From Acidimicrobiaceae bacterium (GTDB lineage: Bacteria > Actinomycetota > Acidimicrobiia > Acidimicrobiales > RAAP-2): a stretch of 64,000 bases of DNA. Positions 625 to 28,149 of the stretch are shown here, in pieces; position 1 is the first letter of the stretch; each line of letters begins with the position of its first letter. The stretch lies in the NCBI GenBank assembly GCA_003153575.1, contig PLZW01000001.1:15334-79333 (forward strand). Reading direction: 5' to 3'. Both the position numbers and the translations under genes were made by a program. The notes under the pieces are model-generated. The model was not told the origin of the DNA. It made no database searches and saw nothing but the letters and a program-made list of their open reading frames with translations.

Positions 625-790
625 GCCCGTTCTGAGTGGTCCATCCGATGTTGTTCGGTCCTCCCTCGTCCCCCAGATTCGCCGCTGAACTGGTCCTAAG
701 CCATCGGACCCACGAGGCACGGTGAGTTGACCGGCGGTCGGACGATGCGAGGATTCCCGCACAAATGAATCAGGCGCGCAATGTGAGGCT

Positions 791-820
791 TTCATCACTT
801 ACGACATTATGACTATAATG
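791..820 (+). promoter_or_regulatory. hipB promoter with overlapping palindromic operator
   Basis: A consensus -10 TATAAT lies at 814-819, with a weak -35 (TTCATC, 791-796) at 17-bp spacing. A perfect 6-bp inverted repeat, CATTAT-gact-ATAATG (805-820), covers the -10. The start codon at 828 lies 8 nt after the -10, so the mRNA should be leaderless or nearly so. A palindrome over the -10 is what an autorepressing HipB-type antitoxin would bind; the operator role is inferred. Confidence 0.6.
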
Positions 821-827
821 AGAGGAA

Positions 828-1073
828 ATGAGCACATCCAAGCACGACGATCAGCCTTTCAGGGTCTACACCGCCGCCTCCATCGGCCCGGCAATGAGGC
901 ACTACCGGAAGGAAGCCGGACTCACTCAGGCTGAGTTAGCCGACAAAGTAGGCCTTACCCGGGAGTATCTGTCGCGCCTCGAACAGGGTCACGAGTCCGA
1001 GCAGCTCCGTCGCGTCGTAGCGATACTGCGCGAACTCGGCGTACGAGCCACGCTACAGAAGGCCGACTGGTAG
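828..1073 (+). CDS. hipB: HipB-like XRE-family antitoxin / autorepressor
   Basis: An 81-residue protein with a single lambda-repressor-type helix-turn-helix. The HTH core spans about residues 20-60 (IGPAMRHYRKEAGLTQAELA, then VGLTREYLSRLEQG). It ends in the short hydrophobic C-terminal strand typical of HipB (VVAILRELGVRATLQKADW). HipB proteins dimerise, bind palindromes in their own promoter and neutralise the HipA kinase encoded next to them. The stop TAG overlaps the GTG of the downstream hipA by one base (TAGTG), so translation is coupled. The ATG at 828 has no properly spaced Shine-Dalgarno, and the -10 ends 8 nt upstream, which fits leaderless translation. Base composition is visibly less GC-rich than in neighbouring housekeeping genes. 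Confidence 0.88.
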   Translation: MSTSKHDDQPFRVYTAASIGPAMRHYRKEAGLTQAELADKVGLTREYLSRLEQGHESEQLRRVVAILRELGVRATLQKADW

Positions 1074-2329
1074 TGCCCGATGAACTAGCCGTTTGGCTCA
1101 ACGGAGACCACGTAGCCACTGTGATGCAGGTGAGGGGGCGACCTCGACTGTCGTATACCGAAACCGCCCTTGCCAAGTACCCACTCGGCCTACCTCTGCT
1201 CTCCTTGGCGCTCCCACTTACTCCGCAACCCTTCACACCTGGCGTTGTACGTCCCTTCCTCGACGGCCTACTCCCAGAGGGAGACGCGCGCCGCGCAATT
1301 GCTGATGACTTCAACGTCAGAGCAAGCGACACCTACGGGCTTATTCGTGCGCTAGGACGAGACTGCGCCGGTGCATTGGTGATCCAGCCGGCAGATGAGC
1401 CCGCCCCGCCTCCTCCATCAACCATCACGGCCGAGAGGCTCACCGACGATGAGATCGCAGAGCTTGTCGCGAATCTTCGAAGCGCACCGCTTGGCGTGGG
1501 AGGACGCGTACGCATCTCCCTTGCCGGAGTGCAAGAGAAGTTGCTTTTGACGAAGATGCCCGACGGCAGTTGGGGCCGTCCTGTCGACGGAACTCCCTCA
1601 ACGCACATTCTCAAACCCTCGATCGCGCGATATCCACACACAGTACCCAACGAAGCTTTCGGAATGCGCGTCGCGAAGCATCTTGGTCTCTCAGTGGCCA
1701 ATGTCGAGACAACGCGTGTCAACGGTCGAGACCTCATCGTGGTCGAGCGCTTCGATCGTGTTATTCATCCCGACGGCACCGTGGAGCGTTTGCATCAGGA
1801 AGACTTTTGTCAAGCTACCGGGACGCCTCCTTCCAAGAAGTATCAGGAGGGCGGCGGTCCTTCGTTGAGGCGGATCGCACGAATCCTCCGAGATAACGGA
1901 ACCTCTGAGTCGCCCGAGGCGCTCTTGCGTGCCGTCGTCCTGAACGTCCTGATCGGAAACGGTGATGCCCACGCGAAAAACTTCTCGCTGCTTCACCACC
2001 CGGTGGGAACGCTTCGGCTGACACCGATCTATGACGTGATGTCGACCTTGCACTACGGGGATGATCGGCTTGCTATGTATATCGACGATGTGCGCCGGAC
2101 CAACCGGGTGACTGCGAACCGGATTGTCAACGAGGCAGTCAGTTGGGGTATTCCGAGATTCAGGGCTATCGCAATCGTCGCTGACATGCTCGAGCGAGCA
2201 TTGGTGGCAATCGAAGCGACAATGGCCGAAACGACCGACCTGCCGGCTGAGATCGTCAAGCTCGCTCGATCTCAGCTCCGTCAACTTCAAAGCGAATTTG
2301 ATATAACGCCAGGCTCAGAGGATGGGTAA
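1073..2329 (+). CDS. hipA: HipA-family serine/threonine kinase toxin
   Basis: A 418-residue HipA-type protein kinase. E. coli HipA phosphorylates glutamyl-tRNA synthetase to cause persistence; the target here is unknown. The N-terminal subdomain (AVWLNGDHVATV onward) is followed by SLAGVQEKLLL, the ATP-binding region HILKPS, ERFDR and the RLHQEDFCQATG segment. The kinase core has GNGDAHAKNFSLL (catalytic Asp and Asn) and PIYDVMSTLHYGDD (metal-binding Asp). Length is normal, and I see no frameshift or lost catalytic residue, so the kinase should be active. The GTG start overlaps the hipB stop. A short hairpin (2328-2341, AAGGC / GCCTT) lies at its stop codon but has no T-run, so it is a weak terminator. 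A second HipA kinase is encoded convergently 84 bp away. Confidence 0.9.
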   Translation: MPDELAVWLNGDHVATVMQVRGRPRLSYTETALAKYPLGLPLLSLALPLTPQPFTPGVVRPFLDGLLPEGDARRAIADDFNVRASDTYGLIRALGRDCAGALVIQPADEPAPPPPSTITAERLTDDEIAELVANLRSAPLGVGGRVRISLAGVQEKLLLTKMPDGSWGRPVDGTPSTHILKPSIARYPHTVPNEAFGMRVAKHLGLSVANVETTRVNGRDLIVVERFDRVIHPDGTVERLHQEDFCQATGTPPSKKYQEGGGPSLRRIARILRDNGTSESPEALLRAVVLNVLIGNGDAHAKNFSLLHHPVGTLRLTPIYDVMSTLHYGDDRLAMYIDDVRRTNRVTANRIVNEAVSWGIPRFRAIAIVADMLERALVAIEATMAETTDLPAEIVKLARSQLRQLQSEFDITPGSEDG

Positions 2330-2413
2330 GGCGCACGCCTTGATTGGGATGTCGGTACTGGGCAGACGTGGGGATTGTGTAGGGACGGACTCGTGTGCCG
2401 AAGGAATCTAAAT

Positions 2414-3685
2414 TTAGGTAGGGCGGAATCGAGCGATGTCCTCTCCGACCCTGGCGATCGTGTCTCCGTCGATACCGGCGGCAACGGCAAATTCGGGCCA
2501 GGCATCGACGGCTTCGGCCACTTCGCGCAGTGCGGACTCGATGCCAGGCACCTCATGCAGATCACCGAGGGCTCGGAGGTGATCCAGGGTGATGTCGACA
2601 AACCGACCGTTCACACTCATCTGGTGAGTTTGGGTCCACTCACCGCCCCAGTAGGAATGGGTTACGTCGTACGCCGGGGCCAACTTCCATGGGCCGTCCT
2701 CCGGAAGTATGAACGAGAAGTTCTTGGTGTGGTCATCGCGGTTGACGGCCATCACGTTGAAGGCCACCCGTCGGAACATCTGGACGCGGTCGGTGGGGCC
2801 GAAGCCGAGCCTTTCGGCCGTGAGGAAGTAGCTCGAGTACGCATGGCTGCGAGCCAGGTTGTAGTCGAGGTGGCCGACAGCGCACAGGGTCTGGGAGTGG
2901 ATGCGGGCATCGCCCGGTCCTCGGTCGAATCTCTTCGTCATGAAGTGGGAGCGCGGCCCCTCGGGCAGTAGTCGAGACTCGTTCATGGTGATGCCGGCCT
3001 GGGTGGCCATCAGGTAGTAAGCGTATTCCACCCGGCAGTACTGCTGACTCGTGACCAGGGGGTCCATCGGGTGATCGGCAGGGTCGCCAACGCCGTCCAG
3101 CTTGAGCAGCCATTGCTCGAAGCCTTCGGGGGCGGTGAGCTGGCCTGAGCGCATCTGGCCGGTGACCGGGTTGTAGGCGATGACTGCTTTGGCTCGAGCG
3201 CCACCGGCGGTCGAGCCTACGGTGATCAACTGCGTGAGGGCTTCATGTGTCTCCTGGTCGTCCGAGGGCCCGTCGAGCCCGGGGAGTGCTCCCGCAATCT
3301 CGGATCGGGCGGCGGTTACGAGGTCGGCTACCTGGACAAGGCTGACCATTGAGTCCTCCGGACCAGTGGGCGGAGCGAATGTCAGCGCTCCCATCGCCCG
3401 AGAACTTGCATAGGCCAGGCGGTCCAGCGCAGTGATCTGGCTTGGGTCGATACCTTGTTCGGCCATCCACGCGTTGACGAGCGCGTTGCCGAAGCGATCG
3501 GGCAGTGCGTCAGCCAGCATGGCCGGCAATCCGTAGTACGTAGCTCGGGCCAGATCTGGGAATTCGAAGACCCCTGGATGGCGAGGCATGTAGATCGGTG
3601 CCAAGTCGGCGCCGTTCCGTACCCAGTCCTCGTCGTACTCGAACGCGTAGTACCCAGTATTCGGGTCGAGAACGACGGCTCCCAC
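2414..3685 (-). CDS. second HipA-family kinase (HipA domain protein), start uncertain
   Basis: A HipA-type kinase only distantly similar to the one at 1073-2329. Visible: VGSTAGGARAKAVIAY, EQWLLKLDG, FMTKRFDRG, HLDYNLARSHAYSSYF, the catalytic NRDDHTKNFSF and PAYDVTHSY. All key acidic and Asn residues are present. From the GTG at 3685 it has 423 residues, but this start cuts the first beta-strand. In-frame codons upstream read EVSAWDRVVGAVVLDP, which is the usual N-terminus of this subfamily. The only plausible start reaching that region is a CTG at 3736-3734, overlapping the TGA of the upstream HTH gene; there is no in-frame ATG, GTG or TTG in between. The pair forms an independent HTH-kinase toxin-antitoxin operon. 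Confidence 0.85.
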   Translation of the reverse strand: MGAVVLDPNTGYYAFEYDEDWVRNGADLAPIYMPRHPGVFEFPDLARATYYGLPAMLADALPDRFGNALVNAWMAEQGIDPSQITALDRLAYASSRAMGALTFAPPTGPEDSMVSLVQVADLVTAARSEIAGALPGLDGPSDDQETHEALTQLITVGSTAGGARAKAVIAYNPVTGQMRSGQLTAPEGFEQWLLKLDGVGDPADHPMDPLVTSQQYCRVEYAYYLMATQAGITMNESRLLPEGPRSHFMTKRFDRGPGDARIHSQTLCAVGHLDYNLARSHAYSSYFLTAERLGFGPTDRVQMFRRVAFNVMAVNRDDHTKNFSFILPEDGPWKLAPAYDVTHSYWGGEWTQTHQMSVNGRFVDITLDHLRALGDLHEVPGIESALREVAEAVDAWPEFAVAAGIDGDTIARVGEDIARFRPT

Positions 3686-3732
3686 GACCCGATCCCAGGC
3701 CGATACCTCGATGGCTTCAGCAGGGTGATGAG

Positions 3733-4095
3733 TCAGGAGCTGCCACGCTTCGCACTGGGGTGGCGAACGCGTTGAGGAGCATTCGTCTCCGCACGACGCC
3801 GTTGGCGCAAGATCTCCATTGGGCTGATGACGGGCTCAGGCGGGAGGAGTGATTCCAGCCAGTCGGTGCGATCAAGGGCGCGGACCACCCGGACCACCGT
3901 TGTCAATGAGCTGCCCTTTCCGCCCTCGAGGTTCTTGATCGCCGATCCCGAGACGTTTGCCCGCTCAGCCAACTCGATCTGAGTGAGTCGGCTTCGAAGT
4001 CGCAGTCGTCGTACGTCTGCCCCAAGACGTCGTTCCCAGTCAGCCGTAGTGGCCTGGGGTCTCACCTGTTGGTAGCTGCTAGGTGTCTTTTCCAT
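3733..4095 (-). CDS. XRE-family HTH antitoxin paired with the second HipA
   Basis: A 120-residue DNA-binding protein. The HTH covers about residues 22-78 (LGADVRRLRLRSRLTQIELA, then NVSGSAIKNLEGGKG). It is followed by LLPPEPVISPMEILRQRRR, the basic tail seen in HTH partners of this HipA subfamily. It differs from the compact 81-residue HipB of the first module. The ATG at 4095 is preceded by a Shine-Dalgarno-like AAGAGG about 8 nt upstream, so unlike hipB this gene seems to have a leadered mRNA. It lies directly upstream of, and overlaps, the second HipA gene. It probably represses its own promoter at the AT-rich tract beyond 4100 and neutralises the partner kinase. Confidence 0.87.
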   Translation of the reverse strand: MEKTPSSYQQVRPQATTADWERRLGADVRRLRLRSRLTQIELAERANVSGSAIKNLEGGKGSSLTTVVRVVRALDRTDWLESLLPPEPVISPMEILRQRRRAETNAPQRVRHPSAKRGSS

Positions 4096-4113
4096 CTCTT
4101 ATACCTCTTACTT

Positions 4114-4129
4114 ACTATAACAGACTATA
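4114..4129 (-). promoter_or_regulatory. AT-rich promoter / candidate operator of the second HipBA module
   Basis: Two ACTATA hexamers (4114-4119 and 4124-4129) lie exactly 10 bp apart in an AT-rich patch. On the minus strand they read TATAGT, a good -10, about 18 nt before the ATG at 4095. Ten-bp spacing puts both on the same helix face, as expected for repressor half-sites. The rest of 4130-4344 shows no convincing gene or structure. Confidence 0.45.
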
Positions 4130-4344
4130 TTACATCTGTGCTAGGGGCATTACCTTGTTCGCTAGGCTCTCGCCGGATCACATTCCATCCTAAGCCAGAA
4201 ATCTGAGCATCCGCCGCACGTCCATGGGATGTCTGATCTTGACGCCAGCTAGCCACGAGCCGGGCTGTACGTGGCCGGCTCGGTCTTCGAGAAAGTGGAA
4301 GTTGGTGCTGGAGCCCGGGTCAGCGAGCCGCCGTGAGTGCCGCT

Positions 4345-4878
4345 CTAGGAGGCGGTGACCTTCGTGACCAGTTGCGGGAACGGCGACGGCGCCCCGGCCA
4401 CCGGCGGCAGACCCGACACGCTGAGTCGTGAGGCCCCGGCTTGCTGAGGGATGAAGGTCACCACGGACGCCCACGACCCGGCCGTCGCCGGCGAGAACGG
4501 GTGGGGCAGGTGGTACGTCCCCGGTGTACTCACCGTCATCCGCTGATCGGTGGCCGGCCGGCCGGCGTCGGCCGCGGCACGGTCGGACACCTGGAATTCG
4601 AGCGTCGCCGGCTTGACCGTGCCCTTGAGGACCGCGGTGATATGGATGACCGTGTGCCCCGCCGTGCCGGTGGCGGGCGACGAGGTCACCGACAAGGTGA
4701 ACCCGTCGACACTTCCCGTGGCGGGAAGACCGGACGGGGCCGTGCTCGTCGTGGCCGAGCTCCCGGCCTTCGTGGTGCTGGTGGCACTGGACGGGCCGGA
4801 GCTCGAGCACCCCGCCAGCACCGGTAGGGCCAGGGCGGCGAGGACGGCGGCGACAGACACCTTCGGGGAGCGGCGCAT
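4345..4878 (-). CDS. secreted lipoprotein of unknown function
   Basis: A 177-residue lipoprotein. A type II signal peptide (MRRSPKVSVAAVLAALALPV) leads to the lipobox LAGC at about residues 21-24. A Ser/Thr-rich linker follows (about 25-55), then a beta-rich domain of about 110 residues (VDGFTLSVTSSPATGTAGHT through VTFIPQQAGASRLSVSGL). The strand pattern looks like a small immunoglobulin-type periplasmic domain such as YtkA/FixH-like folds, but no motif is decisive and I do not assign a function. The start is supported by a leaderless-type hexamer TACCAT on the minus strand (4885-4890), 6 nt before the ATG. The gene is transcribed away from the RlpA-like gene and is not in an operon. Confidence 0.8.
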   Translation of the reverse strand: MRRSPKVSVAAVLAALALPVLAGCSSSGPSSATSTTKAGSSATTSTAPSGLPATGSVDGFTLSVTSSPATGTAGHTVIHITAVLKGTVKPATLEFQVSDRAAADAGRPATDQRMTVSTPGTYHLPHPFSPATAGSWASVVTFIPQQAGASRLSVSGLPPVAGAPSPFPQLVTKVTAS

Positions 4879-4884
4879 CGGGTC

Positions 4885-4890
4885 ATGGTA
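4885..4890 (-). promoter_or_regulatory. -10 hexamer of leaderless lipoprotein gene
   Basis: On the minus strand this reads TACCAT, 6 nt before the ATG at 4878. No Shine-Dalgarno site occurs in the gap. The same arrangement recurs before at least eight other genes in this window. No clear -35 is visible. Confidence 0.5.
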
Positions 4891-4959
4891 CTGGCGCCGG
4901 CACCGCCGCCCGTGTCTCCCCGATGGCCGAGGGCTGGGGGGACGCCGTCGGACCCTACG

Positions 4960-5095
4960 GTTTGATCCCCGGGGGAGATCCGCCTAAGTTGACCGTGCGG
5001 CCGCTCTTCGGAGCGGTCGTTCCGCAACCGGCACCGATCTCGGGGCCCTGCGGAGGACGGCTTGGAGGAGTCGTCCCTGTCCATCCTCTCCCCGG
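4960..5095 (+). promoter_or_regulatory. possible structured leader before the RlpA-like gene
   Basis: The region is rich in inverted repeats. The clearest is CCGCTC-TTCG-GAGCGG at 5001-5016, a 6-bp stem with a C(UUCG)G tetraloop, extended by GCGG/CCGC at 4997-5000 and 5022-5025. There is no T-run after it. It may be a structured 5' leader, since cell-wall hydrolase and RlpA genes of actinobacteria often have riboswitch leaders, but no known consensus could be matched. Confidence 0.25.
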
Positions 5096-5755
5096 GTGGA
5101 GCCGGTCCTCGCGGACGGGCGCCCCGGGACTGTCGGGGGAGGGCAGAAGTCCCATGAGGAGAGTGGAGTCCTGAGGACCGAACGCCAACGGGGCAGCCGG
5201 CGTGCCGTCGGGCTGCTCCTCTGTGGAGCCGTGCTCCTCGTTCCGCTACTGCTGGCCCAGAATGGTACCGACGCGTCGGTGCGCTTGGCCGCCGCCCACG
5301 CGCCACCCGCCCGGGTGTCGACCGATCGGGTGGTGATCAACCGAGCGGCGGCCCGACCCTCGACGACCACAACGGCGCCAGCCGCCCCGGTGGCCCTGGC
5401 CGAGGACCCCGTCCGCCAGGTGGTCCCGACGACGCTGGCGTCCCCGACCACCACCACGGTGCCGCCGACCACCACCACCACCACGACGTACCTGCACGGT
5501 CCGCTGGCCGGCGCCGACGTCGTGACCCGGGGCGACGTGACCTACTACGCCCACCCGGCGGGTCGCTGCGCCAGCCCGTGGCTGCGGTTCGGCACGGTGG
5601 TCTCGATCACGAACCCGGCCAACGGGGCCACCGTGAGCTGCGTGGTCGATGACCGGGAGGCCGACACCGACCGCTCGATCGACCTCGCCACCTCGACGTT
5701 CGCCGAGATCGCCCCGCTGTCGCAGGGTGTGGTCTACGCCGTCCTCCACTGGTGA
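5096..5755 (+). CDS. secreted RlpA-like double-psi beta-barrel protein
   Basis: A 219-residue exported protein. An Arg-rich n-region is followed by a hydrophobic segment (AVGLLLCGAVLLVPLLLA, about residues 37-54), then a long Thr/Pro/Ala linker with runs of Thr (about 80-130). It ends in an RlpA-type barrel with DVTYYAHPAGRCASPWLRFG, VVSITNPANGATVSCVVDDR and SIDLATSTFAEIAPLSQGV. The barrel Asp in VDDRE is conserved. Such proteins bind or cleave denuded peptidoglycan glycans. The position before rsmA-ispE is where many actinobacteria keep a resuscitation-promoting factor or related wall protein. The GTG at 5096 gives an unusually long n-region. A six-codon ATG ORF (5154-5174) ends one base inside an in-frame CTG at 5171, an alternative coupled start. 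Confidence 0.8.
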   Translation: MEPVLADGRPGTVGGGQKSHEESGVLRTERQRGSRRAVGLLLCGAVLLVPLLLAQNGTDASVRLAAAHAPPARVSTDRVVINRAAARPSTTTTAPAAPVALAEDPVRQVVPTTLASPTTTTVPPTTTTTTTYLHGPLAGADVVTRGDVTYYAHPAGRCASPWLRFGTVVSITNPANGATVSCVVDDREADTDRSIDLATSTFAEIAPLSQGVVYAVLHW

Positions 5756-5821
5756 TCCGGGGCCACCGACGGCCTACCCCCGATGGATCGACCGGACCCG
5801 GGATGGTGCCACACTGATCGG

Positions 5822-6682
5822 GTGACCCACGGGCGAGCGGAGATCCACGAGCTGCTCCTGGCCAACGACCTCCGCCCGAGTCGGGCACTCGGACAGAACT
5901 TCGTGGCCGACGGCAACACGGTACGGCGGATCGTCCGGCTGGCCGGCGTCGGCCCGGGCACCCGGGTGCTCGAGATCGGGGCCGGGCTCGGTTCGCTGAC
6001 CCTCGCCCTGGTCGAAGCCGGTGCCGAGGTGACCGCCGTCGAGATCGACCGGCACGTCCTGCCCGTGCTCCGGCGCCAGGTCGAACCGCTCGGGGTGACC
6101 GTGGTCGAGGCCGACGCCCGGACGCTCGACTTCGCCGGGCTCCTCGGGGTGGAGCCGGGTTGGTCGCTGGTGGCCAATCTTCCGTACAACGTCGCCGTGC
6201 CGCTCGTGATGCGGGTCCTGGAGGAGGCACCTCAGGTCGCCTCGATGCTGGTCATGGTCCAACGGGAGGTGGGGGAGCGGCTGGCGGCCCGGGCCCGTGA
6301 CGAGGCGTACGGGGCCGTCTCGGTGAAGGTGGCCTACTGGGCCGAGGCCTCGGTGGTGGGCAAGGTCTCTTCGAGTGTCTTCATCCCCCGGCCCCGGGTG
6401 GAGTCGGTCCTGGTGCGGATGGACCGTCGGGCGGACCAGCCGCTCCCGACGGGCGACGGCAGGGTGGGCCCGGGCGAGCCCGCGTACGAGCGCCTGTTCG
6501 CCGTGGTCAAGGCGGGGTTCGCCCACCGGCGCAAGATGCTGCGGCGCTCACTCGAGCACCTGGTCGTGCCGGCCGCCTTCGAGGCGGCGGGAGTCGCCCC
6601 GACGGCCCGGGCCGAGGAGCTCGGACTCGACGAGTGGGAGCGGCTGGCCTGGTGGCGACCGGACCCGGCGGGTGCCTCCTGA
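5822..6682 (+). CDS. rsmA: 16S rRNA (adenine1518-N6/adenine1519-N6)-dimethyltransferase
   Basis: KsgA/RsmA makes the m6,2A pair in helix 45 of 16S rRNA during small-subunit maturation. Visible: ALGQNFVADGNTVRRIV at the N-terminus, SAM motif I VLEIGAGLGSLTLAL, the acidic ribose-binding VTAVEID, motif IV NLPYNVAVPLV (NLPY catalytic signature), VQREVGERLAA and the C-terminal FIPRPRVES. The GTG at 5822 gives 286 residues and puts the GQNF segment at the usual distance. An in-frame ATG at 5783 would add 13 residues without family support. A weak -10-like CACACT (5810-5815) ends 6 nt before the GTG, so the transcript may be leaderless. The stop TGA shares its A with the ispE ATG. Confidence 0.93.
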   Translation: MTHGRAEIHELLLANDLRPSRALGQNFVADGNTVRRIVRLAGVGPGTRVLEIGAGLGSLTLALVEAGAEVTAVEIDRHVLPVLRRQVEPLGVTVVEADARTLDFAGLLGVEPGWSLVANLPYNVAVPLVMRVLEEAPQVASMLVMVQREVGERLAARARDEAYGAVSVKVAYWAEASVVGKVSSSVFIPRPRVESVLVRMDRRADQPLPTGDGRVGPGEPAYERLFAVVKAGFAHRRKMLRRSLEHLVVPAAFEAAGVAPTARAEELGLDEWERLAWWRPDPAGAS

Positions 6683-7518
6683 TGGCCGGCCGGAGCCCGG
6701 ACGTGGCCGACGGTGCGGTCGTCGAACTTTCGGCCCCGGCCAAGTTGACGGTGTCGCTGCGGGTGACCGGTGTCCGCCCCGACGGCTACCACCTGCTCGT
6801 CGCCGAGATGGTCACCCTGGACCTGGCCGACACGGTGTTCGTCGGTCCGGGTGCCGGAGGAGGGTTCGAGGTCGTGGTCGACTGGCCCGGCGGCACCCCG
6901 GCGTGGCGCGACCTCGACGTCGGGGCACCGGGCGACAACCTGGTGACCCGGGCGCTGGACGTCGCCGGCCGGGCCGCCGACGTGCGTCTGGTGAAGCGGA
7001 TTCCGCCCGGAGCCGGCCTGGGCGGCGGATCGGCCGATGCCGCTGCCGTCCTGCGGTGGGCGGGGTGCACCGACCCCGCGGTGGCGGTCCGGCTCGGAGC
7101 CGACGTCCCCTTCTGTCTGCGCGGAGGTCGGGCCCTGGTGTCGGGCGTCGGCGAGGTGGTGGAGCCACTGGACTACGAGCCCCGCTCCTATGTCCTGGTG
7201 CTGCCGCCCTTCGGCGTCGACACCGCCGCCGTCTACCGGGTGTGGGACGCGCTGGCATCCGCCGGGAAGCTGCCCCCGCCGGATGGATCGTCCAACGATC
7301 TCGAAGCGGCGGCGCTGGTGGCCGAGCCCCGGCTCGAGGGATGGCGTCAGGCTCTCGAAGACGCCAGCGGCCGTCGGGCGCATCTGGCCGGTAGCGGGTC
7401 GACTTGGTTCGTCGAAGGCACGGCGGACGAACTGGGCATCGACATCGGTGCCGGGCTGTCACACGGCGGGCAGCACGCACCACTGGTCGCGACGAGGACG
7501 TCGCCGGGCGTGGGGTGA
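6682..7518 (+). CDS. ispE: 4-diphosphocytidyl-2-C-methyl-D-erythritol kinase
   Basis: A GHMP-family kinase of the MEP (non-mevalonate) isoprenoid pathway; it phosphorylates CDP-ME at the 2-hydroxyl. Visible: SAPAKLTVSLRV (catalytic Lys near residue 21), RPDGYHLL, the glycine-rich ATP loop PPGAGLGGGSADAA (about 108-121), the LGADVPFCLRGG segment with the catalytic Asp, and the C-terminal AGSGSTWFVEG. At 278 residues it is a normal actinobacterial size. The ATG overlaps the rsmA stop (TGATG), so it is translationally coupled; the longer frame back to 6634 lies inside rsmA. Its presence shows that precursors for the polyprenyl carriers used by the distal glycan cluster are made by the MEP route. 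Confidence 0.93.
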   Translation: MAGRSPDVADGAVVELSAPAKLTVSLRVTGVRPDGYHLLVAEMVTLDLADTVFVGPGAGGGFEVVVDWPGGTPAWRDLDVGAPGDNLVTRALDVAGRAADVRLVKRIPPGAGLGGGSADAAAVLRWAGCTDPAVAVRLGADVPFCLRGGRALVSGVGEVVEPLDYEPRSYVLVLPPFGVDTAAVYRVWDALASAGKLPPPDGSSNDLEAAALVAEPRLEGWRQALEDASGRRAHLAGSGSTWFVEGTADELGIDIGAGLSHGGQHAPLVATRTSPGVG

Positions 7519-7572
7519 GGTGCTGCAGTGACGGTCGGGACCGGGTGACCGGGCCGCTCGTCAGAGGTGGGG

Positions 7573-7674
7573 CTACTTGCCCGCCGCCCGCCTCTGCCAA
7601 CGAGTGGCCTTCAACATCTTCTTGTGCTTCTTCTTGCGCATGCGCTTGCGGCGCTTCTTGATCAAGGATCCCAT
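7573..7674 (-). CDS. bS22-type 33-residue ribosomal protein (AURKAIP1/COX24 domain)
   Basis: A tiny 33-codon gene. The protein starts MGSLIKKRRKRMRKKKHKKM and continues LKATRWQRRAAGK; about half the residues are Lys or Arg. This matches the actinobacterial AURKAIP1/COX24-domain family. In mycobacteria its member is the small-subunit protein bS22, seen in ribosome structures near the decoding centre. The ATG is at 7674-7672 and the TAG at 7575-7573. It lies convergent to ispE and downstream of nothing on its own strand except, about 65 bp further on, the 3' end of the kinase gene. It is easily missed by gene finders. Confidence 0.88.
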   Translation of the reverse strand: MGSLIKKRRKRMRKKKHKKMLKATRWQRRAAGK

Positions 7675-7739
7675 GTCGGAGCGCACCCTAGCCGCCCCCG
7701 GCGCCGATCGCCATACGCGGCGCCCGGTCCGGTGCCTGC

Positions 7740-9149
7740 TCAGGCCTGGGTGTCCGACGGGTGGGGGGCAGTGATGGTGGGTAGCGCGAACCGGAACAGC
7801 GCACCGCCGCCCGGGGCGTGGTGGACGCTCACCTGTCCGCCTTCGTCGAAGGCCACCTGGGCCACGATGGCCAGTCCCAGACCGGATCCCGGCCGGCTGC
7901 GTGCCTCGGGTGCCCGGTAGAAGCGGTCGAAGATGTGGGCCATGTCGGCGTCGGCCACGCCCGGGCCGTGGTCGCGTACCATCAGGACGCCCCCGGCGCA
8001 GCTGACCTCGACCACCCCGTCGTCCGGACTGAACTTGAGGGCGTTGTCGAGCAGGTTGTCGACGGCCCGTTCGATCCGGGAGGGCGAGCCCGACACCCAC
8101 GACGGCAGGACCGATGCGGCAAAGGTCACGTTGCGGCTCCGGCCGTGCGTGGTGGCCGCCTCCACGGCGGTCAGGACCAGTTCGTCGAAGCGCACGGGAC
8201 CGGACATCTGGTGGGGCTGCTCACCCCGGGCCAGCTCGGCCATGTCGGCCACCAGCGAGGTGAGCTCGTCGAGCTGGGACAGCACGTCGCTGATCAGCAC
8301 GTCACGTTCGTCGGGGTCGAGCTCTTCCATGCGACGCGCCACCTCCATGTTGGTGCGCAGGCTGGTGAGGGGTGTGCGCAGCTCATGGGAGGCATCGAGC
8401 ACCAACTGGCGCTGGCTCTCGCGTGACGAGTCGAGGGCGGCCAGGAGCCGGTTGAAGGCGCGGCGCAGTCGACCCAACTCGTCGGGGCCGCCGGGATCGA
8501 GTCGGCGGGTGACGTCGGTGGTGCGGGCCAGCTCCTCGACGGTCCCCGTCAGATCGTCGAGCGGCGCCAGTACGGCCCGCCCGATTCCCAAGCCCAGCAG
8601 TACGGCGAGGCCCACGCCGATGAGGATGATGATCCACAGTGCGACGACCAGGTTGTGGAGTCCTTCATTGACGCCGGTCAGCGGCTCGGTGAGTTGCAGG
8701 GCCCCGCCGTACGGCATCGTCAGCTTTTTGATGGGGAGGGTGCCATTGCTGTATTGATACGGACCGGCCAGCGAGTAGACGATCTCGCGCACCGAGATGC
8801 CTCCCACCTTGGTGGTGTACAGCAGCTTGTTCCCAGCAACGTTGCTGCCGGCCAGCTGGGCCACTTGGGGCGGGATGGCTAGGAATTGGGGGTCACCGGG
8901 ATTGACCTTGCCGTCGGCCCACACCATCTGCGAGCAGTAGCCCGTTGCCCGCCCGCAGGTGTTCCCAATCTTGGGTAGTTGGCCGATGGCATTGCCGGCG
9001 AGGAGGCTCTGTGCGTTCTGTTCGAGGGTGACGTCGACCGATCCGACCAGCGACTCGTAGGCGACCACATAGGTGGCCACCGCCCCGATCAGGACCACCA
9101 CCAGGACCGCCCCGGTGGTCATCAGGACCAGGCGGGCGCGGAACGTCAT
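7740..9149 (-). CDS. membrane sensor histidine kinase (MprB-like)
   Basis: A 469-residue sensor kinase. The first transmembrane helix is at about residues 8-30 (LVLMTTGAVLVVVLIGAVAT). An extracytoplasmic sensor domain runs to about 165 and contains two Cys (CGRATGYCSQM). The second helix is at about 168-190, followed by a HAMP linker (APLDDLTGTVEELART). The HisKA H-box LVLDASHELRTPLTSL has its phospho-acceptor at His255. The HATPase N-box is NLLDNALKFSPDDG, and the G-boxes are DHGPGVADADMAHIFDRFYR and GSGLGLAIV. It is encoded 21 bp after the response regulator in the same operon. The architecture resembles mycobacterial MprB (envelope-stress sensing), but the stimulus cannot be read from sequence. 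Confidence 0.93.
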   Translation of the reverse strand: MTFRARLVLMTTGAVLVVVLIGAVATYVVAYESLVGSVDVTLEQNAQSLLAGNAIGQLPKIGNTCGRATGYCSQMVWADGKVNPGDPQFLAIPPQVAQLAGSNVAGNKLLYTTKVGGISVREIVYSLAGPYQYSNGTLPIKKLTMPYGGALQLTEPLTGVNEGLHNLVVALWIIILIGVGLAVLLGLGIGRAVLAPLDDLTGTVEELARTTDVTRRLDPGGPDELGRLRRAFNRLLAALDSSRESQRQLVLDASHELRTPLTSLRTNMEVARRMEELDPDERDVLISDVLSQLDELTSLVADMAELARGEQPHQMSGPVRFDELVLTAVEAATTHGRSRNVTFAASVLPSWVSGSPSRIERAVDNLLDNALKFSPDDGVVEVSCAGGVLMVRDHGPGVADADMAHIFDRFYRAPEARSRPGSGLGLAIVAQVAFDEGGQVSVHHAPGGGALFRFALPTITAPHPSDTQA

Positions 9150-12011: not shown

Positions 12012-15000
12012 TCACGGGGTGATGCTCGCCGAAGGTGCCGACGACGGTCCGGTGCCCACCGAGTTGGCGGCGGTCACGGTGAAGGTGTACCCCGTGCCGT
12101 TGGTGAGCCCGGTGACCGTGCACGAGGTGGTGGCCGTCGTGCAGGTGAAGGCGCCCGGCGCCGACGTCACCGTGTAGCCGGTCACGGCGCTACCCCCGTT
12201 GAGGGCGGGGGCGGTCCAGGACACCGTCGACTGTGTGCTGACGCCGTTGGTGCCGGACACTGCTGTCGGTGCGCCCGGCGTGCCGACGATGATCGCGTTC
12301 GATGCAGCCGACACGGCGCCGTTCCCGTTAGCGTTCTTGGCCGTCACCGTGAAGGTGTAGCTGGTGCCGGTGGTCAGCCCGGTGAAGACGCAGGTGACCG
12401 AGGACCCGGTGAGCGAGGTCGAGCAGGCGGCCGGCGGGGCGACGACGGGTGACGACGCCACGGTGAAGCCGGTCAGGGCCGAGCCGCCGGTGAAGGCGGG
12501 AACTGTCCAGTTGATGGTGGCCGACGTTGGCGACGCGGTGGCCACCGCCGCCACGCCCGTCGGTGGGCTCGGCCTTCCCATCGTGATGGACGGCGAGGCG
12601 GCCGACGCCGGGCCGTTCCCGTTGGCGTTCTTGGCCAGCACCGTGAAGGTGTAGGGGGTACCCGACGTGAGACCGGTGAAGACGCAGCTGGTCGAGGCCC
12701 CGGTCAGCGTGGGGGTCGTGCAGGCGGCCGGCGGGCCCACCGCGGGCGTCGATGCCACGGTGAAGCCGGTCAGCACCGAGCCACCGTTGGCCGTCGGAGC
12801 TGTCCAGGTGATGGTGGCTGACGTCGCCAATGCGGTGGCCGTTGCCGTCACGGCGGTGGGTGCGCCGGGCCTGCCCGTGGTGACCGCGGCGGTCGCCGTC
12901 GAGGCGGTGCCCGGACCTACGGCGTTCGAGGCCGTCACCGTGAAGGTGTAGGGGGTGTTGGCGGCCAGTCCGGTGAACACGCAGTTGGTGGAGGCCCCGG
13001 TGAGCGAGGTCGAGCAGGCGGCCGGCGGGGCGACGACGGGCGACGACGCCACCGTGAAGCCGGTCAGGGCGGAGCCGCCATTGCTGGCTGGGGCCGTCCA
13101 GGCGATAGCGATCGAAGTCGTCGTGGTACCGGCACCGGCCGTCACCCCGGTCGGGGCCCCGGGTGTGGTGGCCGGGATGGCCGCGGCCGATGGAGCCGAG
13201 GCGCTACCTGCTCCCACACCGTTGGTGGCCGTCACGGTGAAGGTGTAGCTGGTCCCGTTGGTCAGCCCGGCGACGGTACAGGAGGTGGTGGCCGTGGAGC
13301 AGGTGAAGCCCCCGGGCGACGAGGTCACCGTGTAGCCGGTGATGGCGTTCCCGCCGTTGGATGCCGGAGCGGTCCAGGACACGACGGACTGGGTATTGGC
13401 GTTCGACGTGGCCGTCACGGCGGTCGGGGCACCGGGCGTGGTGGCCGGGATGGCTGCCACCGAGGCGGCCGAGGCCGGTCCGGCGCCGAAGCTCGTGGAG
13501 GCGGTGACGGTAAAGGTGTAGCTGGTGCCATTGGTGAGGCCGCCCACCGTGCAGCTGGTGGTGGCCGAGCTGCAGGTGAAGCCGCCGGGCGACGAGGTGG
13601 CCGTGTAGGAGGTGATGGTGCCGTTGCCCGTGGCGGCCGGGGCCGTCCAGGAGACCACCGACTGGGCGTTGGCGTTCGACGTGGCTGTGACTGCGGTGGG
13701 GGCCCCCGGCGTTCCGGCGACCAGCGAGTTCGAGGCCGCCGAGGGCGCCCCGGTGCCGGCCGAGTTGATGGCCGCCACGGTGTAGGTATAGGCGGTCCCG
13801 GACGTGAGGCCGGCCACGGTACAGCTGGTGGCGGCGGTCGTACAGGTCAGGGCGCCCGGGCTGGACGTCACGGTGTAGTTGGTGATGGCGGCCCCACCGT
13901 TGGATGCCGGAGTCGTCCAGTTGACCGCCGCGGTGGTGGCTGTCGAAGTGGCCGACGCCGTCACGCCGGTCGGGGCGCTGGCCGTCGTGGCCGGAATGGC
14001 CGCCGCCGATGCCGACGAGGCCGCGCTGGTGCCTGCGGAGTTGGTGGCTGTCACCGTGAAGGTGTAGCTGGTCCCGTTGGTCAGACCGGTCACCGGGCAG
14101 CTGGTGGTGATCGTCGAGCAGGTGAAGCCGCCCGGCGACGACGTGGCGGTGTAGGCCGAGATTGCCGCGCCGCCGTTGGAGGCGGAAGCGGTCCACGACA
14201 CCGCCGACTGGGCATTGGCGTTGGATGTGGCGGTCACGGCCGTGGGGACACTCGGCGTCGTGGCCGGCGTGGCCGGAGCGGAGGCCGTGGAGGCGGCACT
14301 GGTACCGGCCGAGTTGGTTGCCGTGACGGTGAACGTGTAGGCGGTCCCGTTGGTGAGCCCGCCCACCGTGCAGCTTGTGGTCGCCGTCGAGCAGGTGAAG
14401 GCACCGGGCGTCGAGGTCACGGTGTAGGTCGAGATGACCGCCCCACCGTTGGAGAGCGGTGCCGTCCACGACACCACCGACTGGGTGTTGGCGTTGGAGG
14501 TGGCATTGACCGCGGTGGGGACACCGGGAGTGGTGGCCGGCGTTGCCGGTGAGGATGCAGCGGACGCACTGCCCATGCCGGCGGAGTTGGTGCCGGTCAC
14601 GGTGAAGGTGTAGGGCGTGCCGTTGGTGAGCCCGGACACCGTGCAGGTGGTGGTGGCCGACGAACAGGTGAAGCCGCCGGGTGACGAGGTCACCGTGTAG
14701 CTGGTGATGGTCGCACCACCGTTGCTGAGCGGTGCCGTCCAGGCCACGACCGACTGGGTGTTGGCGTTGGACGTAGCGGTGACGCCGGTGGGCGCGCCTG
14801 GGGTGGTGGCCGGCGTGGCCGGAGCGGACGCCGTCGAGGCGACGCTTGTCCCGGCCGAGTTGGTGGCTGTCACGGTGAAGGTGTAGCTGGTCCCGTTGGT
14901 CAGGCCGCCCACCGTGCAGCTGGTGGTGGCCGACGAGCAGGTGAAGCCGCCGGGCGTCGAGGTCACGGCGTAGGAGGATACGGCCGCGCCACCGTTCGAA

Positions 15001-18000
15001 ACCGGTGCATTCCAGGAGACCAAGGACTGGGAGTTGACATAGGACGAGGCGTTCACACTCGTGGGAGCCCCCGGGGCGGTGGCCGGCACGGCCGGTGCCG
15101 AGGCGCCCGACGTGGTCCCCGTCCCGGCAGGGTTGGTCGCCTTCACGGTGAAGGTGTAGCTGGTCCCGTTGGTCAGGCCGCCCACCGTGCAGCTGGTGGT
15201 GGCCGTCGAGCAGGTGAAGCCGCCCGGCGACGACGTGACCGCGTAGGAGGTGATGGCCGCGCCACCGTTGGAGAGCGGCGCTGTCCACGACACCACCGAC
15301 TGGGTGTTGGCGTTGGAGGTGGCGGTCACGCCCGTGGGGGTGCCAGGCGCGGTGGCCGGGGTGGCCGGAGGCGAGGCCGACGAGGCCGAGCTCGTCCCGG
15401 CCGAGTTCGTGGCGGTCACGGTGAAGGTGTAGCTGGTCCCGTTGGTCAGGCCGGTCACGATGCACGTGGTCGAAGCGGTGGAGCAGGTGAAGGCGCCCGG
15501 GAACGAGGTCACCGTGTAGGAACTGATGGCTGCGCCACCGTTGGAGACCGGCGCCGTCCAGGAAACCACCGACTGGGCATTGGCGTACGAGGTACCCGTG
15601 ACCCCGGTGGGAACGCCGGGTGCCGTGGCCGGGATGGCCGCCGACGAGGCGAGGGAAGCCGGGCCGGTGCCGGCTGAGTTCTGGGCCGTGACGGTGAAGG
15701 TGTAGCTGGTGCCGTTGGTCAGGCCGTTCACCGTGCAGCTGGTGGTGGGCGTGGAGCAGGTGAAGCCGCCGGGCGACGAGGTGACGGTGTACCCAGTGAT
15801 GGTGGCGCCGCCGTTGGACGACGGTGCCGTCCAGGACACCACCGACTGGTTGCTGGCATTCGATGATGCCGTCACGCCGGTGGGTGCGCTGGGCACCGCG
15901 GCCGGAATGGCTGGGGCCGACGCCGCCGAGGCCGGGCCGGTGCCGGCCGAGTTGGTGGCCGTCACGGTGAAGGTGTACGCCGAGCCGTTGGTCAGACCAC
16001 CCACCGTGCAGTTGGTGATGGCCGCCGAGCAGGTGAAGCCGCCGGGCGACGAGACCACCGTGTACCCGCTGATGGCGGCGCCGCCGTTGGACGACGGCGC
16101 CGTCCATGACACCACCGACTGGGTGTTGGCGTTCGACGTGGCCACAACCGCCGTGGGTGCCGTCGGCACGGTGGCCGGGGTGGCCGGGGCCGACGGGCTG
16201 GAGGCGGCACTGGTGCCGGCCGGGTTGGTGGCCGTGACCGTGAAGGTATAGGCGGTCCCGTTGGTGAGGCCGTTCACCGGGCAGGTGGTCGTCGTCCCGT
16301 TGGCGGTGGTGCAGGTCAGGCCGCCGGGCGATGCGGTGGCGGTGTAGCTGGTGAGAGCGGCGCCACCGTTGCCCACCGGGGCCGTCCACGACACGACCGA
16401 CAGGCTGTTGGCGTTCGACGTGGCCGTCACGGCCGTGGGTGCCGTCGGCACGGTGGCCGGGGTGGCCGGGGCCGACGGGCTGGAGGCGGCACTGGTGCCG
16501 GCCGGGTTGGTGGCCGTCACGGTGAAGGTGTAGCTATTGCCGTTGGTGAGTCCGGACACCGTGCAGCTGGTCGAGGCCGTCGTGCACGTGAAGGCGCCGG
16601 GCGACGAGGTGACCTTGTAGGAGGTGATGGCCGCCCCTCCGTTGGAGGCGGGAGGCGTCCAGGACACCACTGACTGGGTGCTGAGGTAGGAGCTGGCGGT
16701 GACGCCGGTGGGGGCGCCGGGCACCGTGGCCGGGGTGGCGGGGGCCGAGGGCGTGGACGGGGCGCTGGTACCCGCGGCGTTGCTGGCCGTGACCGTGAAG
16801 GTATAGGCGGTGCCGTTGGTGAGTCCGGAGACCGTGCAGGTGGTCGAGGCGGCGGAGCAGGTCTGCCCGCCGGGCGAGGCCGTCGCCGTGTACCCGGTGA
16901 TGGCGGCACCACCGTTGCCAGACGAGGCCGTCCAGGCCACCACCGCCTGGGTGTTGGCGTACGAGGTGGCGGTGACGGCGGTCGGCGCCGTCGGCACCGT
17001 GGCCGGGGTGGCCGGGGCCGAGGCCGACGAGGCCGGGCCCGTGCCGGCACCGTTGGTGGCCGTGACGGTGAACGTGTAGGGCGAGCCGTTGGTCAGGCCG
17101 TTGACTGTGCAGCTGGTGGTGGCCGACGTGCAGACGAAGCCGCCCGGCGAGGACGTCACGGTGTACTGGGTGATCGGCGCCCCGCCGTTGCTGGCCGGAG
17201 CCGTCCAGGACACGAGCGACTGGGCGTTGGTCCAGGACACAGCCGCCACGGCCGTCGGCGCGCCGGGAATGGTCGCCGGGGTGGCCGGTGCCGACGGGCT
17301 GGAGGCGACGCTGGTGCCCGCTGCGTTGGTGGCCGTGACGGTGAACGTATAGGCCGTGCCGTTCGTGAGTCCGACGACGGTGCAGCTGTTGGTGGTGGCG
17401 GTGCAGGTGGCGGCGCCGGGCGAGGCGGTCACCGTGTACCCGGTGATCGGCGCCCCGCCGTTGCTGGCCGGGGTCGTCCACGACACCACCGACTGGGTGT
17501 TGGCGTACGACGTGCCCACCACGGCGGTGGGCGCCGACGGTGCCGTCGCCGGCGTAGCCGGGGCCGAGGGCACGGAGGCGTTACCCGAGCCGACGGCGTT
17601 GGCCGCGGTGACGGTGAAGGTGTAGGCGGTGCCGTTGGTGAGCCCGGTCACCGTGCAGTTCGTGGTGGCGCCGTTCGGCGTGGTGCAGGACTGCCCGCCC
17701 GGCGAGGCGGTCGCCGTGTAGCTGGTGATCGGCGAGCCGCCGGTGGTCGGTGATGCGACCCAGGTGACGGGCACCTGGGTGTTCTGGTACGAGACCACCG
17801 AGACCGAGGAGGGGACACCCGGAGTGCCCACCGTCAGCGGATTCGACGACGGCGACGCCGGACCGGAGCCGGCCCCGTTGGCCGCGGTCACCGTGAAGGT
17901 GTAGGTGGTGCCGTTGGTGAGTCCGCTGAATACGCAGGTGGTGGTCGATCCGTTGGCGGTGGTGCACGTGTAGCCACCGGGGCTCGACGTCACGGTGTAG

Positions 18001-21000
18001 CTGGTGACAGGGACCCCGCCATTGGTCGACGGCGGCGTCCAGTTGACCGACGCGGTCCCCGAGAAGTTGGTGGCCAAGGCGACGGCACCGGTCGGGGCGC
18101 CCGGGAAGGTCGCCGGGGTGGCCGGGAGCGAGGCGGCCGAGGCGGGTCCGCTGCCCACCGCGTTGGTGGCCACCACGGTGAAGGTGTAGCTCGACCCGTT
18201 GGTGAGCCCGTTGACGGTGCAGTTGAATCCGACGGTCGAGCACGTGAACCCGCCGGGCGACGAGATCACCTTGTAGTTGGTGATCGGTGCGCCGCCGTTG
18301 GAGGCCGGTGGGGTCCAGGACACCACGGACTGGGTATTGGCGTACGAGGAGCCGGCCACGTTGGTGGGGGCGCCGGGAATCGTGGCCGGGGTGGCCGGGG
18401 CGGAAGGGGCGGACGCCGGGCCCACACCCGAGCCGTTGGTGGCGGTCACGGTGAAGGTGTACGCGTCGCCGTTGGTGAGCCCGGGCACGGTGGTCGGACT
18501 GGCCGAGCTGGTGGCCGTCTGCCCGCCGTTGGCCGGGGTGGTGGTGTCGGTCGCCGTCACCGTGTACCCGGTGATGGCGGCGCCACCGTTGGAGGCCGGG
18601 ACCGTCCACGACACCACGGACTGGGTGTTGGCGAACGACGTCGCCGTCACACCGGTCGGGGCGGTCGGCACCGTCGAGGGAGTGGCCAACACCTGTGCCG
18701 ACGTCGGGCCGTCACCGATGGCATTGGTGGCATTGACGATGAAGGCGTAGGTCGTGCCGTTGGTGAGGCCGAGGATGGTGCACGACGTGGTCGAGCCGTT
18801 ACCGGTGACGCAGGTCTGGCCGGTGTTGACGGTCACCGTGTAGCTGATGATTGGCGAGCCACCGGTGGAGACGGGCGCCGTCCAGGACACCACCGACTGG
18901 CTGTCGGCGAAGGACGTCGCCGTCACGCCGGTGGGGACGCCGGGGGTGGCCGCCGGGACGATGGGCGCCGATGGGGCGGACGCCGGCCCGGTACCGAGGG
19001 CGTTGGTGGCCGTCACCGTGAAGGTGTAGGTGGTCCCGTTGGTGAGCCCGCTCACCGTGCAGCTGGTGGTGGCCGTAGTGCACGTGAACCCGCCGGGCGC
19101 CGAAGTCACCTTGTAGCTGGTGATCGGCGAACCGCCGTCGGACGGTGCCGTCCAGCTGACCACCGAGATGGAGTCGAAGTGGTTGGAGGCGATGACACCG
19201 GTCGGGGCACCGGGCAGCGAGGCGGGAGTGGCCGGGGCGCTGGCTGCTGACGAGGGACCGGTGCCGGCGGAGTTGGTGGCCGCCACGGTGAACGTGTAGG
19301 CGGTGCCGTTGGTCAGTCCCGTGACCGTGCAGGTCAAGGTGGTGCCGTTGGGCGTCGTGCAGACCTGTCCGCCGCTCGAGGTCACGGTGTAGCTGCTGAT
19401 GGCCGCGCCGCCGTTGGAGGCGGGCGCGCTCCAGGTCACCACCGACTGGGTGTTGGCGTTCGAGGTGGCCGCCACTCCGGTTGGTGCCCCGGGCACGGTG
19501 GCGGGAATGACGGGCGACGACGCCGACGACGCCGGCCCGGTCCCCGAGCCGTTGGTGGCGGTCACCGTGAAGGTGTAGCTGGTGCCGTTGGTGAGCCCGA
19601 GCACCGTGCACGAGATGCCGCTGGTCGTGCACGTCTTGTTGCCGGGGCTGGAGGTGACCGTGTAGTTGGTGATGGCGGCGCCGCCGTTGGAGAGCGGCGC
19701 CGTCCACCACACCGCCGACTGGGCGTTGCCGTTGGCCGTCGCCACCACGCCGGTCGGCGCGCCGGGCACGGTCGACGGCGTGGCCGCCGAGGACGGGGCC
19801 GAGGCCGGCCCGGTGCCGATCCCGTTGGTCGCCGTCACCGTGAAGGTGTAGGAGGTGCCGTTGGTGAGGCCGACGACCGTGCAGTTGGTGGTCGTACCGT
19901 TGGGCGTGGTGCAGGTCTGTCCGCCGCTGGAGGTGACCGTGTAGTGGGTGATGGCCGACCCGTTCGATGCGGCGGCCGTCCAGGACACCACCGACTGGGT
20001 GTTGGCGAACGACGTCGCCGTCACGTTGGTCGGGGCCCCGGGCGGGGTGTTGGCCGGCACCACGGCGTTGGAAGCGGCGGACGCGGCCCCCGTGCCCGCC
20101 GCGTTGGTGGCCGTGACGTTGAAGGTGTAGCTGGTGCCGTTGGTGAGGCCGACCACCGTGCACGAGGTGCCGCTGGTGGAGCACGTGATGTTGCCGGGGG
20201 TCGAGGTGACCGTGTAGCCGGTGATGGGCAGGCCGCCGTTCGAGGCGGGGACCGACCAGGTGACGGTGGCCGACCGGTAGGCGCCGGTGGCGACGCCGAT
20301 GGTCGGGGCGCTGGGCACGGTGCCGGGGGTGGCCGTGGCCGCTGCCGACGGGCTCCCGGTGCCGAGGGCGTTGGTGGCTGTCACCGTGAAGGTGTAGGTA
20401 GAGCCGTTGGTGAGGCCGACGACCGTGCAGGTGAGGGTCGTCCCGTTGGGAGTGGTGCACGTCTGCCCGCCGCTGGAGGTGACGGTGTAGCTGGTGATTC
20501 CTGATCCGCCGCTGGATGGCGCCGTCCAGGTGACCACGGACTGGGTGTCGGCGTAGGAGGTGGCCGCCACGTTGTTGGGCACGCCGGGAGGACCGGTGGC
20601 GGTGATCGAATTGGAGGAGCCCGACTGCGGGCCGGTGCCCGAGCCGTTGGTCGCCGACACCTTGAATCTGTACGTGGTGCCCGTGGTGAGGCCGCTCACC
20701 GTGCAGGGGGACGACGCGCAGGTGCCCGTCAGGCCGCCCGGACTCGAGGTGGCGGTGTAGCTGGTGATCGGGGCGCCGCCGTTGGAACCCGGTGGGGTGA
20801 AGGCCACGATGCCCGCGCCGACACCGTTGGTGGCCGTGCCGATGGTCGGTGCCCCGGGGAGGGTCGACGGCGTGGCCGGCGGCGACGCCGCCGAGGCGGG
20901 GCCCGTGCCGATGGCGTTGGTGGCGGTGACGGTGAAGGTGTATGCGGTCCCGTTGGTGAGGCCGTTGACGGTGCAGGACGGCGTCCCGGTGGTCGTGCAC

Positions 21001-27846: not shown

Positions 27847-28149
27847 GGTGCTCTTTTGGCAGAGTACGGCCCGAGAAACAGTGCTTCCTAGGCGTAATTC
27901 CACGTACGAGACCCATCGACCGTCCCGACTGGGTACTTGAGGAGAGGCCCAGGCACAGGTCGCGGCCGGCAACGCGCGCAGGGGCTCGGCAACCGCAACC
28001 GAACAGCAACTGACCGGGCGAGTCGAGCGACCGGTCTGGCGCGTGCTGGCGGGCGCGACCTATGGCGCGTGACGTCGCGCCGGCGGGTTCGAAGAGGAGG
28101 CGGTCGGTTGCGGGACCCGTCGAGCGGTGGACCTACGGGTGGCCCCGGA
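27847..28149. other. 303-bp intergenic region upstream of the pilin operon
   Basis: Lies between the pilV-like start and the acyl-CoA dehydrogenase stop, both on the minus strand. It has no credible gene. The half next to the pilins is AT-richer and holds a possible minus-strand -10 TACTCT (27861-27866), 14 nt before the pilV-like ATG, without a recognisable -35. Near the dehydrogenase stop there is an imperfect hairpin (ACCCGT 28115-28120 with ACGGGT 28135-28140) without a T-run. Confidence 0.4.

Follow-up and report, generated by a model that had tools for sequence, protein, structure and literature searches.

Do two toxin–antitoxin (TA) modules that lie tail to tail in a bacterial genome make up one composite system, or are they independent neighbours? 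The question is raised by a 64,000-nucleotide stretch of DNA from an Acidimicrobiaceae bacterium (G000:C15:15334-79333; this whole stretch is hereafter the window), in which two gene pairs, hipB1-hipA1 on the plus strand (module 1) and hipB2-hipA2 on the minus strand (module 2), converge between tatD and a lipoprotein-like gene. The source genome (G000) is a draft metagenome assembly of 2.98 Mb, 76% complete and in 43 contigs. We consider it probable that these are two independent HipBA modules of known type, brought side by side by insertion rather than joined in a composite system, with module 2 probably attenuated. The genes and intervals concerned are as follows.

1-624: tatD, left neighbour of the hip block; DNA similarity to the relative G010 ends just past its stop (627).
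About 628-4344: segment without counterpart in the empty sites of relatives; its borders are inexact, the intergenic DNA having diverged.
828-1073, plus strand: hipB1, a helix-turn-helix (HTH) protein of 81 amino acids ending in -ADW, presumed antitoxin and autorepressor.
1073-2329, plus strand: hipA1, 418 amino acids from a GTG start, presumed HipA Ser/Thr kinase toxin.
2330-2413: the 84 bp between the stops of hipA1 and hipA2.
2414-3736, minus strand: hipA2, 440 amino acids with a putative CTG start at 3736, HipA-family kinase of a distant subfamily.
3733-4095, minus strand: hipB2, an HTH protein of 120 amino acids, presumed antitoxin and autorepressor.
4345-4878, minus strand: lipoprotein-like gene, named by eye and without a Pfam match.

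The initial annotation, made from the sequence alone, had described a convergent pair of HipBA modules 84 bp apart, and both the gene coordinates and the Pfam domains agree with it. Judged by its sequence, module 1 is a HipBA type II TA module with a toxin close to classical HipA. hipA1 matches Couple_hipA (E 2.4e-19) and HipA_C (E 5.1e-53) of Pfam, both above cut-off, and carries the kinase motifs RISLAGVQEK, NGDAHAKN and IYDV, with a Gly-rich loop containing Ser, a catalytic Asp and an Mg Asp; the core residues are invariant in alignments. Its profile matches HipA 2wiu over nearly the full length (E 1.8e-65), and the residues that we take to be catalytic (loop Ser, catalytic Asp, Mg Asp) fall in register. 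The structures 2wiu, 3dnu and 3fbr are of HipA from Escherichia coli K-12. The AlphaFold2 model of hipA1 has a mean predicted local distance difference test score (pLDDT) of 86.1. hipB1 is a small HTH gene directly upstream on the same strand, its stop overlapping the hipA1 start by one base at 1073, much as in E. coli hipBA, where the small HTH gene also precedes the toxin gene and briefly overlaps it; what differs from E. coli is that in the window two modules abut. hipB1 matches HTH_3 of Pfam (E 3.5e-12) and couple_hipB of NCBIfam (E 1.7e-14), the latter under the curated cut-off. Its C-terminal Trp resembles W88 of E. coli HipB (PMC3376134). Of 29 loci, 26 yielded a usable match; 17 of these 26 listed homologues have the Trp as well, among them 13 of the 14 at ≥52% identity.

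Module 2, on the same kind of evidence, is a HipBA type II TA module of a distant HipA subfamily. hipA2 matches HipA_C (E 1.9e-43) and Couple_hipA (E 1.7e-12), both above cut-off, and has the motifs GSTAGGARAKA, NRDDHTKN and AYDV; an alignment of 25 rows shows no variation in GGARAKA, in the N, DDH and KN of NRDDHTKN or in the Asp of YDV. hipB2 lies directly upstream on the same strand, with an overlap of 4 bases provided that the CTG is the true start, and matches HTH_31 (E 2e-8) and HTH_3 (E 1.1e-6) of Pfam; couple_hipB of NCBIfam is listed below cut-off, and the C-terminus has no Trp. We took the best 80 of at least 565 hipA2 genome loci, with flanks of at most 6 kb that contig ends often shorten; in 78 of them hipA2 is preceded by a hipB2 match. 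The nearest copy, in the same-genus genome G007 (L234), has the same gene order and overlap and 80% amino acid identity in the toxin (79% by tblastn), but lies at another locus.

The two toxins were said to belong to different subfamilies, and tblastn between them bears this out, with about 25% identity over about 150 residues. Foldseek places HipA structures at the top for the AlphaFold2 model of hipA2 (440-residue form, mean pLDDT 80.5), led by HipA of Shewanella oneidensis (4pu3-4pu5; 4pu5, E 3.8e-16) and followed by 3dnu (E 9.2e-16), at template modelling (TM) scores of about 0.64-0.65 and 16% identity (about 0.64 for S. oneidensis HipA, which the hipA2 profile matches in parts only). The best sequence match of the hipA2 profile is HipT of Legionella (8ezr, E 9.3e-13), confined to the kinase part, and 2wiu is matched partially (E 7.9e-08). 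We nevertheless reject HipBST as a model for either module, as both kinases carry the Couple_hipA N-subdomain in the same open reading frame (ORF) and there is no separate hipS gene, and likewise HipH/YjjJ, as the HTH domains are on separate genes and the 26 and 31 bits scored with the YjjJ model fall short of its cut-off of 401. A third HTH-HipA pair is present in the source genome (G000:C12:16425-17836; L002 830-2241); its HTH gene was named by eye and its hipA contains undetermined bases within the reading frame.

The start of hipA2 sets module 2 apart. The ORF list begins the gene at GTG 3685, giving 423 amino acids (this GTG is residue 18 of the 440-residue form). Translation probably starts 17 codons further upstream, at CTG 3736, because homologues start there, the Couple_hipA match begins at profile position 11, and strand 1 of the 440-residue model (residues 9-13) lies ahead of GTG 3685. 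The hipA2 frame upstream of that GTG holds no ATG, GTG or TTG; the family start position is occupied by the CTG (3736-3734), which overlaps the TGA of hipB2. We surveyed 92 distinct upstream regions of hipA2 homologues (from 96 candidates, after duplicates and short ones were dropped). All but one (L149) have ATG, GTG or TTG no more than 28 codons before the aligned position, and in 43 the start codon sits within the NTGA overlap pattern. CTGA occurs in 10 other homologues surveyed, each of which also has a normal start within 28 codons. The G007 copy, the nearest and outside the 92, has GTG where the window has CTG.

Evolutionary rates add to this. Counted against the outgroups L102 and L103, private amino acid changes number 23 in the window copy of hipA2 and 7 in that of G007 (two-sided binomial p 0.005), and the tree branch of the window copy is 0.18 against 0.094. 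Because nonsynonymous divergence (dN) from G007 is 0.125 against a synonymous divergence (dS) of 0.97, and the frame is open, hipA2 has evolved under constraint over the greater part of its history; dN is also well under dS against relatives. We regard module 2 as probably attenuated or in early decay, since CTG replaces ATG, GTG or TTG and the gene changes faster than its nearest copy. Of the initial annotation's claim that both kinases are intact, the part on the core residues stands, while hipA2 lacks a canonical start and has changed faster. Several points weigh against attenuation. CTG can initiate translation at low efficiency, and module 2 may be functional as it is by such low-level initiation; a one-base error of the draft metagenome assembly would also fit the CTG; and the relative-rate count is made on a single pair with two outgroups.

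How did the block come to lie here? We fetched the rsmA region of 18 relatives, of which 15 (10 congeneric, 5 from the same family) were informative in having both tatD and rsmA matches; in two others (L040, L045) the contig ends soon past the secreted-protein gene, and in L049 no tatD match was found in 4.9 kb upstream. No hip match was found in the fetched stretch of any of the 18, and the tatD-rsmA interval was free of hip matches in 15 of 15. The matches to the two genes range from overlapping (L051) to 2379 bp apart in these 15, compared with 5159 bp in the window, and the block indeed splits an otherwise tight neighbourhood. By this comparison the hip block is a strain-specific insertion of acquired or relocated DNA. 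We place the extra DNA at about 628-4344 because tatD directly precedes the lipoprotein-like gene in G010 and G012. Similarity to G010 resumes at about 4364, inside the lipoprotein-like gene (stop at 4345), and gives no exact junction.

That the block was wrongly joined into the contig during assembly is extremely unlikely: the genome is a draft in many contigs, but both flanks keep the relatives' order of tatD, (lipoprotein), secreted protein, rsmA and ispE on one 384-kb contig. The initial annotation spoke of a small acquired island, which holds for the strain-specific insertion; an island in the sense of a mobile element is putative at most. No integrase or transposase was recognised among the Pfam-scanned ORFs or by eye upstream, a negative that covers part of the ORFs on either side and no search aimed at integrases, and the flanks gave no convincing repeat. 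The 10-bp exact repeat TCCTAAGCCA at 694 and 4188 is unconvincing as a target duplication; the window has three matches to it at ≤1 mismatch, equalled by 9 of 100 shuffles in a test that took no account of spacing. On the left flank, the 31 bp at 638-668 match, at 87%, the 3′ end of what appears to be a hydrolase gene (contig C39 of the source genome), and are possibly a gene relic. The right flank DNA has no other match longer than 19 bp in the source genome. It contains an open stretch of 50 codons (4193-4342, minus strand, stop at 4190) that may be a relic; tblastn against the fetched loci gave no convincing homologue (best E 0.11). Another HipBA module of G007 (G007:C104:47825-48517; L228, L235), 38% identical to hipA1, lies on that genome's tatD-rsmA contig, about 12 kb from tatD and outside the tatD-rsmA gap.

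The block also differs in base composition from its surroundings, as had been claimed. GC content in 500-base windows is 0.57-0.65 over the hip block and 0.70-0.75 on both sides, up to 7.5 kb away. GC at third codon positions (GC3) is 0.62 in hipA1, 0.75 in hipA2, 0.73 in hipB1 and 0.65 in hipB2, compared with a mean of 0.87 (standard deviation 0.05) in 30 other long ORFs of the window, which were picked mechanically by a simple rule and may include a few in the wrong frame. Values down to that of hipA1 or hipB2 do not occur among the 30; one ORF comes down to the level of hipA2 and one to that of hipB1. In codon usage hipA1, hipB1 and hipB2 lie beyond all 30. Composition is thus a good argument in the case of module 1 and a weaker one in that of hipA2, because 5 of the 30 ORFs are as far out in codon usage. 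Both modules at this site in all relatives, with normal composition, is the pattern that the initial annotation named as incompatible with its view; in the relatives compared we found neither module there, and the composition is atypical, less clearly so for hipA2.

Module 2 may have a longer history in the genus. HipA_C matches occur in 7 of 14 genus genomes, source included, and besides the window only G007 has a hipA2-like copy. Between the window and G007, hipA2 (dS 0.97, 80% amino acid identity) has diverged about as much as tatD (0.86, 83%) and rsmA (0.72, 77%), with ispE at 0.85 and 61%; these values argue against an exchange with G007 in the very recent past, and a recent import of module 2 was not borne out. 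The tree groups the window hipA2 with G007 and an Acidimicrobiaceae genome (support 97/91), the latter holding the nearest named relative (L102, 71%). These observations would suit an old module 2 that was relocated, or lost elsewhere, in the genus, with module 1 alone a recent import. We regard this history as possible but rather doubtful, given that the G007 copy is at another locus, that G007 alone has a hipA2-like gene although 6 of the 13 other genus genomes have HipA_C matches, and that GC3 of hipA2 is 0.755 in the window against 0.93 in G007, a difference which speaks for separate histories. No hipBA1 was found near hipBA2 of G007 within the 14.5 kb fetched.

If the two modules formed a unit, they should be met together elsewhere. 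Among 298 genomes of the order (source genome included), relatives of hipA1 (E ≤1e-20, distant HipA included) occur in 83 and those of hipA2 in 20; in the 48 order-level loci inspected (29 + 19, own loci excluded) the partner module was absent from flanks of up to 1.5 kb. HipA_C gave 131 matches in 65 of 198 order genomes, and the sole convergent pair within 1 kb was the window's own; other pairs on the same contig (G210) are tens of kb apart or more. A set of 247 class genomes, of which 44 had matches at E ≤1e-20 and which overlaps in part with the order genomes, showed no other such pair. A second hipA is present in 3 of the 80 hipA2 loci, none convergent: L115 and L168 are divergent, and L164 is tandem and in fragments. 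L115, an Actinomycetes metagenome-assembled genome (ZJ5.bin57), resembles the window in having relatives of both modules within about 4 kb, but head to head and with the hipA1 copy in frameshifted pieces (cluster at 3112-7906). Downstream of that cluster are a PIN-like ORF and a possible antitoxin, both named by eye. Both families also occur on many plasmid records (624 and 2043), at ≤50% and about 40% identity among the 15 matches listed for each. Among the papers listed, none was found by title or abstract start to treat a convergent hipBA pair, which is no proof of absence.

We therefore read the modules as independent, because each is found without the other and the abutting convergent layout does not recur. 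These modules, like TA modules in general, cluster now and then, but in the samples taken they do not form a conserved unit in which they abut tail to tail; the layout is unusual, and nothing indicates a new system. Most likely the layout is fortuitous. The alternative, one composite unit transferred together and jointly regulated, for example through overlapping convergent transcription that yields antisense toxin mRNAs, would draw on the 84 bp between stops with no intrinsic-terminator-like site listed in the gap, on the position of both modules inside one segment missing from the empty sites, and on their common AT-richness. We judge it quite improbable, in view of the non-recurrent layout, the orientation not conserved in L115, the differing GC3 of hipA1 and hipA2, and the lack of a convincing operator in common: the longest 7-mer common to the two promoters was reached by 252 of 1000 shuffles, and a shared operator was rejected. 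A coupled two-kinase switch, in which read-through of each toxin gene would be antisense to the other and the CTG would keep hipA2 toxin low, is more improbable still. Some findings count against full independence. One looser convergent pair exists about 5 kb apart (G151:C36, 18314-19018 plus, 24003-24725 minus), and many genomes are fragmented, so that abutting pairs at contig ends can be missed. Moreover, the 3-Mb genome has three hipA genes, and two of them lie 84 bp apart; because such proximity would be improbable under uniform random insertion, a shared cause (a hot spot, a TA island or joint transfer) is likely.

The control regions were searched for signs of regulation.

757-827, plus strand: presumed hipB1 promoter/operator region, with a candidate inverted repeat CATTATGACTATAATG at 805-820.
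4096-4165, minus strand: presumed hipB2 promoter region, with GAGGTATAA-AGATGG beside the start, common to the G007 copy.

The hipB1 repeat CATTATGACTATAATG is not significant, its arm length being reached by 107 of 1000 shuffles, and that of hipB2 was reached by 848 of 1000. The promoter scan returned no promoter-like site and the terminator scan a single terminator-like site, inside hipA1 and none in the 84-bp gap. RNA folds of four stretches gave z-scores of -0.2 to -1.2, nothing notable.

HipB is known to repress its own operon and to inhibit HipA. On this model, insertion between tatD and the lipoprotein-like gene brought together two type II modules that are independent, belong to different HipBA subfamilies and would each work alone: HipB dimers would keep HipA inactive and, bound to the operator of their own operon, repress it, and on degradation of HipB the freed HipA would phosphorylate a translation factor (an aminoacyl-tRNA synthetase in the cases studied) and growth would stop. 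The literature describes degradation of HipB by Lon through a disordered C-terminus ending in a conserved Trp (PMC3376134) and phosphorylation of aminoacyl-tRNA synthetase by freed HipA (PMC8262856). The autorepression, toxicity, neutralisation and target proposed for both modules draw on knowledge of the family. We infer that the modules are of a selfish or persistence type and act independently, module 2 probably in weakened form. That TA modules maintain themselves selfishly suffices to explain why they are present. In Shewanella, a genomic island is stabilised by a HipAB system (PMC8978831).

An anti-phage role, in which one or both modules act by abortive infection, is unlikely. TA modules are discussed as phage defence in PMC8262856, hipA relatives lie on contigs classed as viral (4 loci of the hipA2 family, 31 of the hipA1 family), and in PADLOC-DB hipA1 has a match, partial only, to the candidate model PDC-M03A (E 2.9e-8). 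On the other side, no complete defence system was matched in PADLOC-DB, where hipB1 and hipB2 gave generic HTH matches and hipA2 none, and hipA2 looks attenuated.

The pair shows HipBA modules reaching the core neighbourhood tatD-rsmA-ispE in an actinobacterial genus that is uncultured. It is also a naturally occurring example of two TA toxin genes side by side, one of which has apparently lost the start codon usual for it; apart from these two aspects the locus is ordinary. Upstream of tatD lie genes read by eye as rsmI and metG, and an Rfam scan of the window matched one tRNA only. Elsewhere in the window, a giant ORF of 4093 amino acids (12012-24293, minus strand) contains 35 fibronectin type III stretches, and beside it an ORF of 953 amino acids (25111-27972, minus strand) has an N-methylation motif scoring slightly below cut-off.

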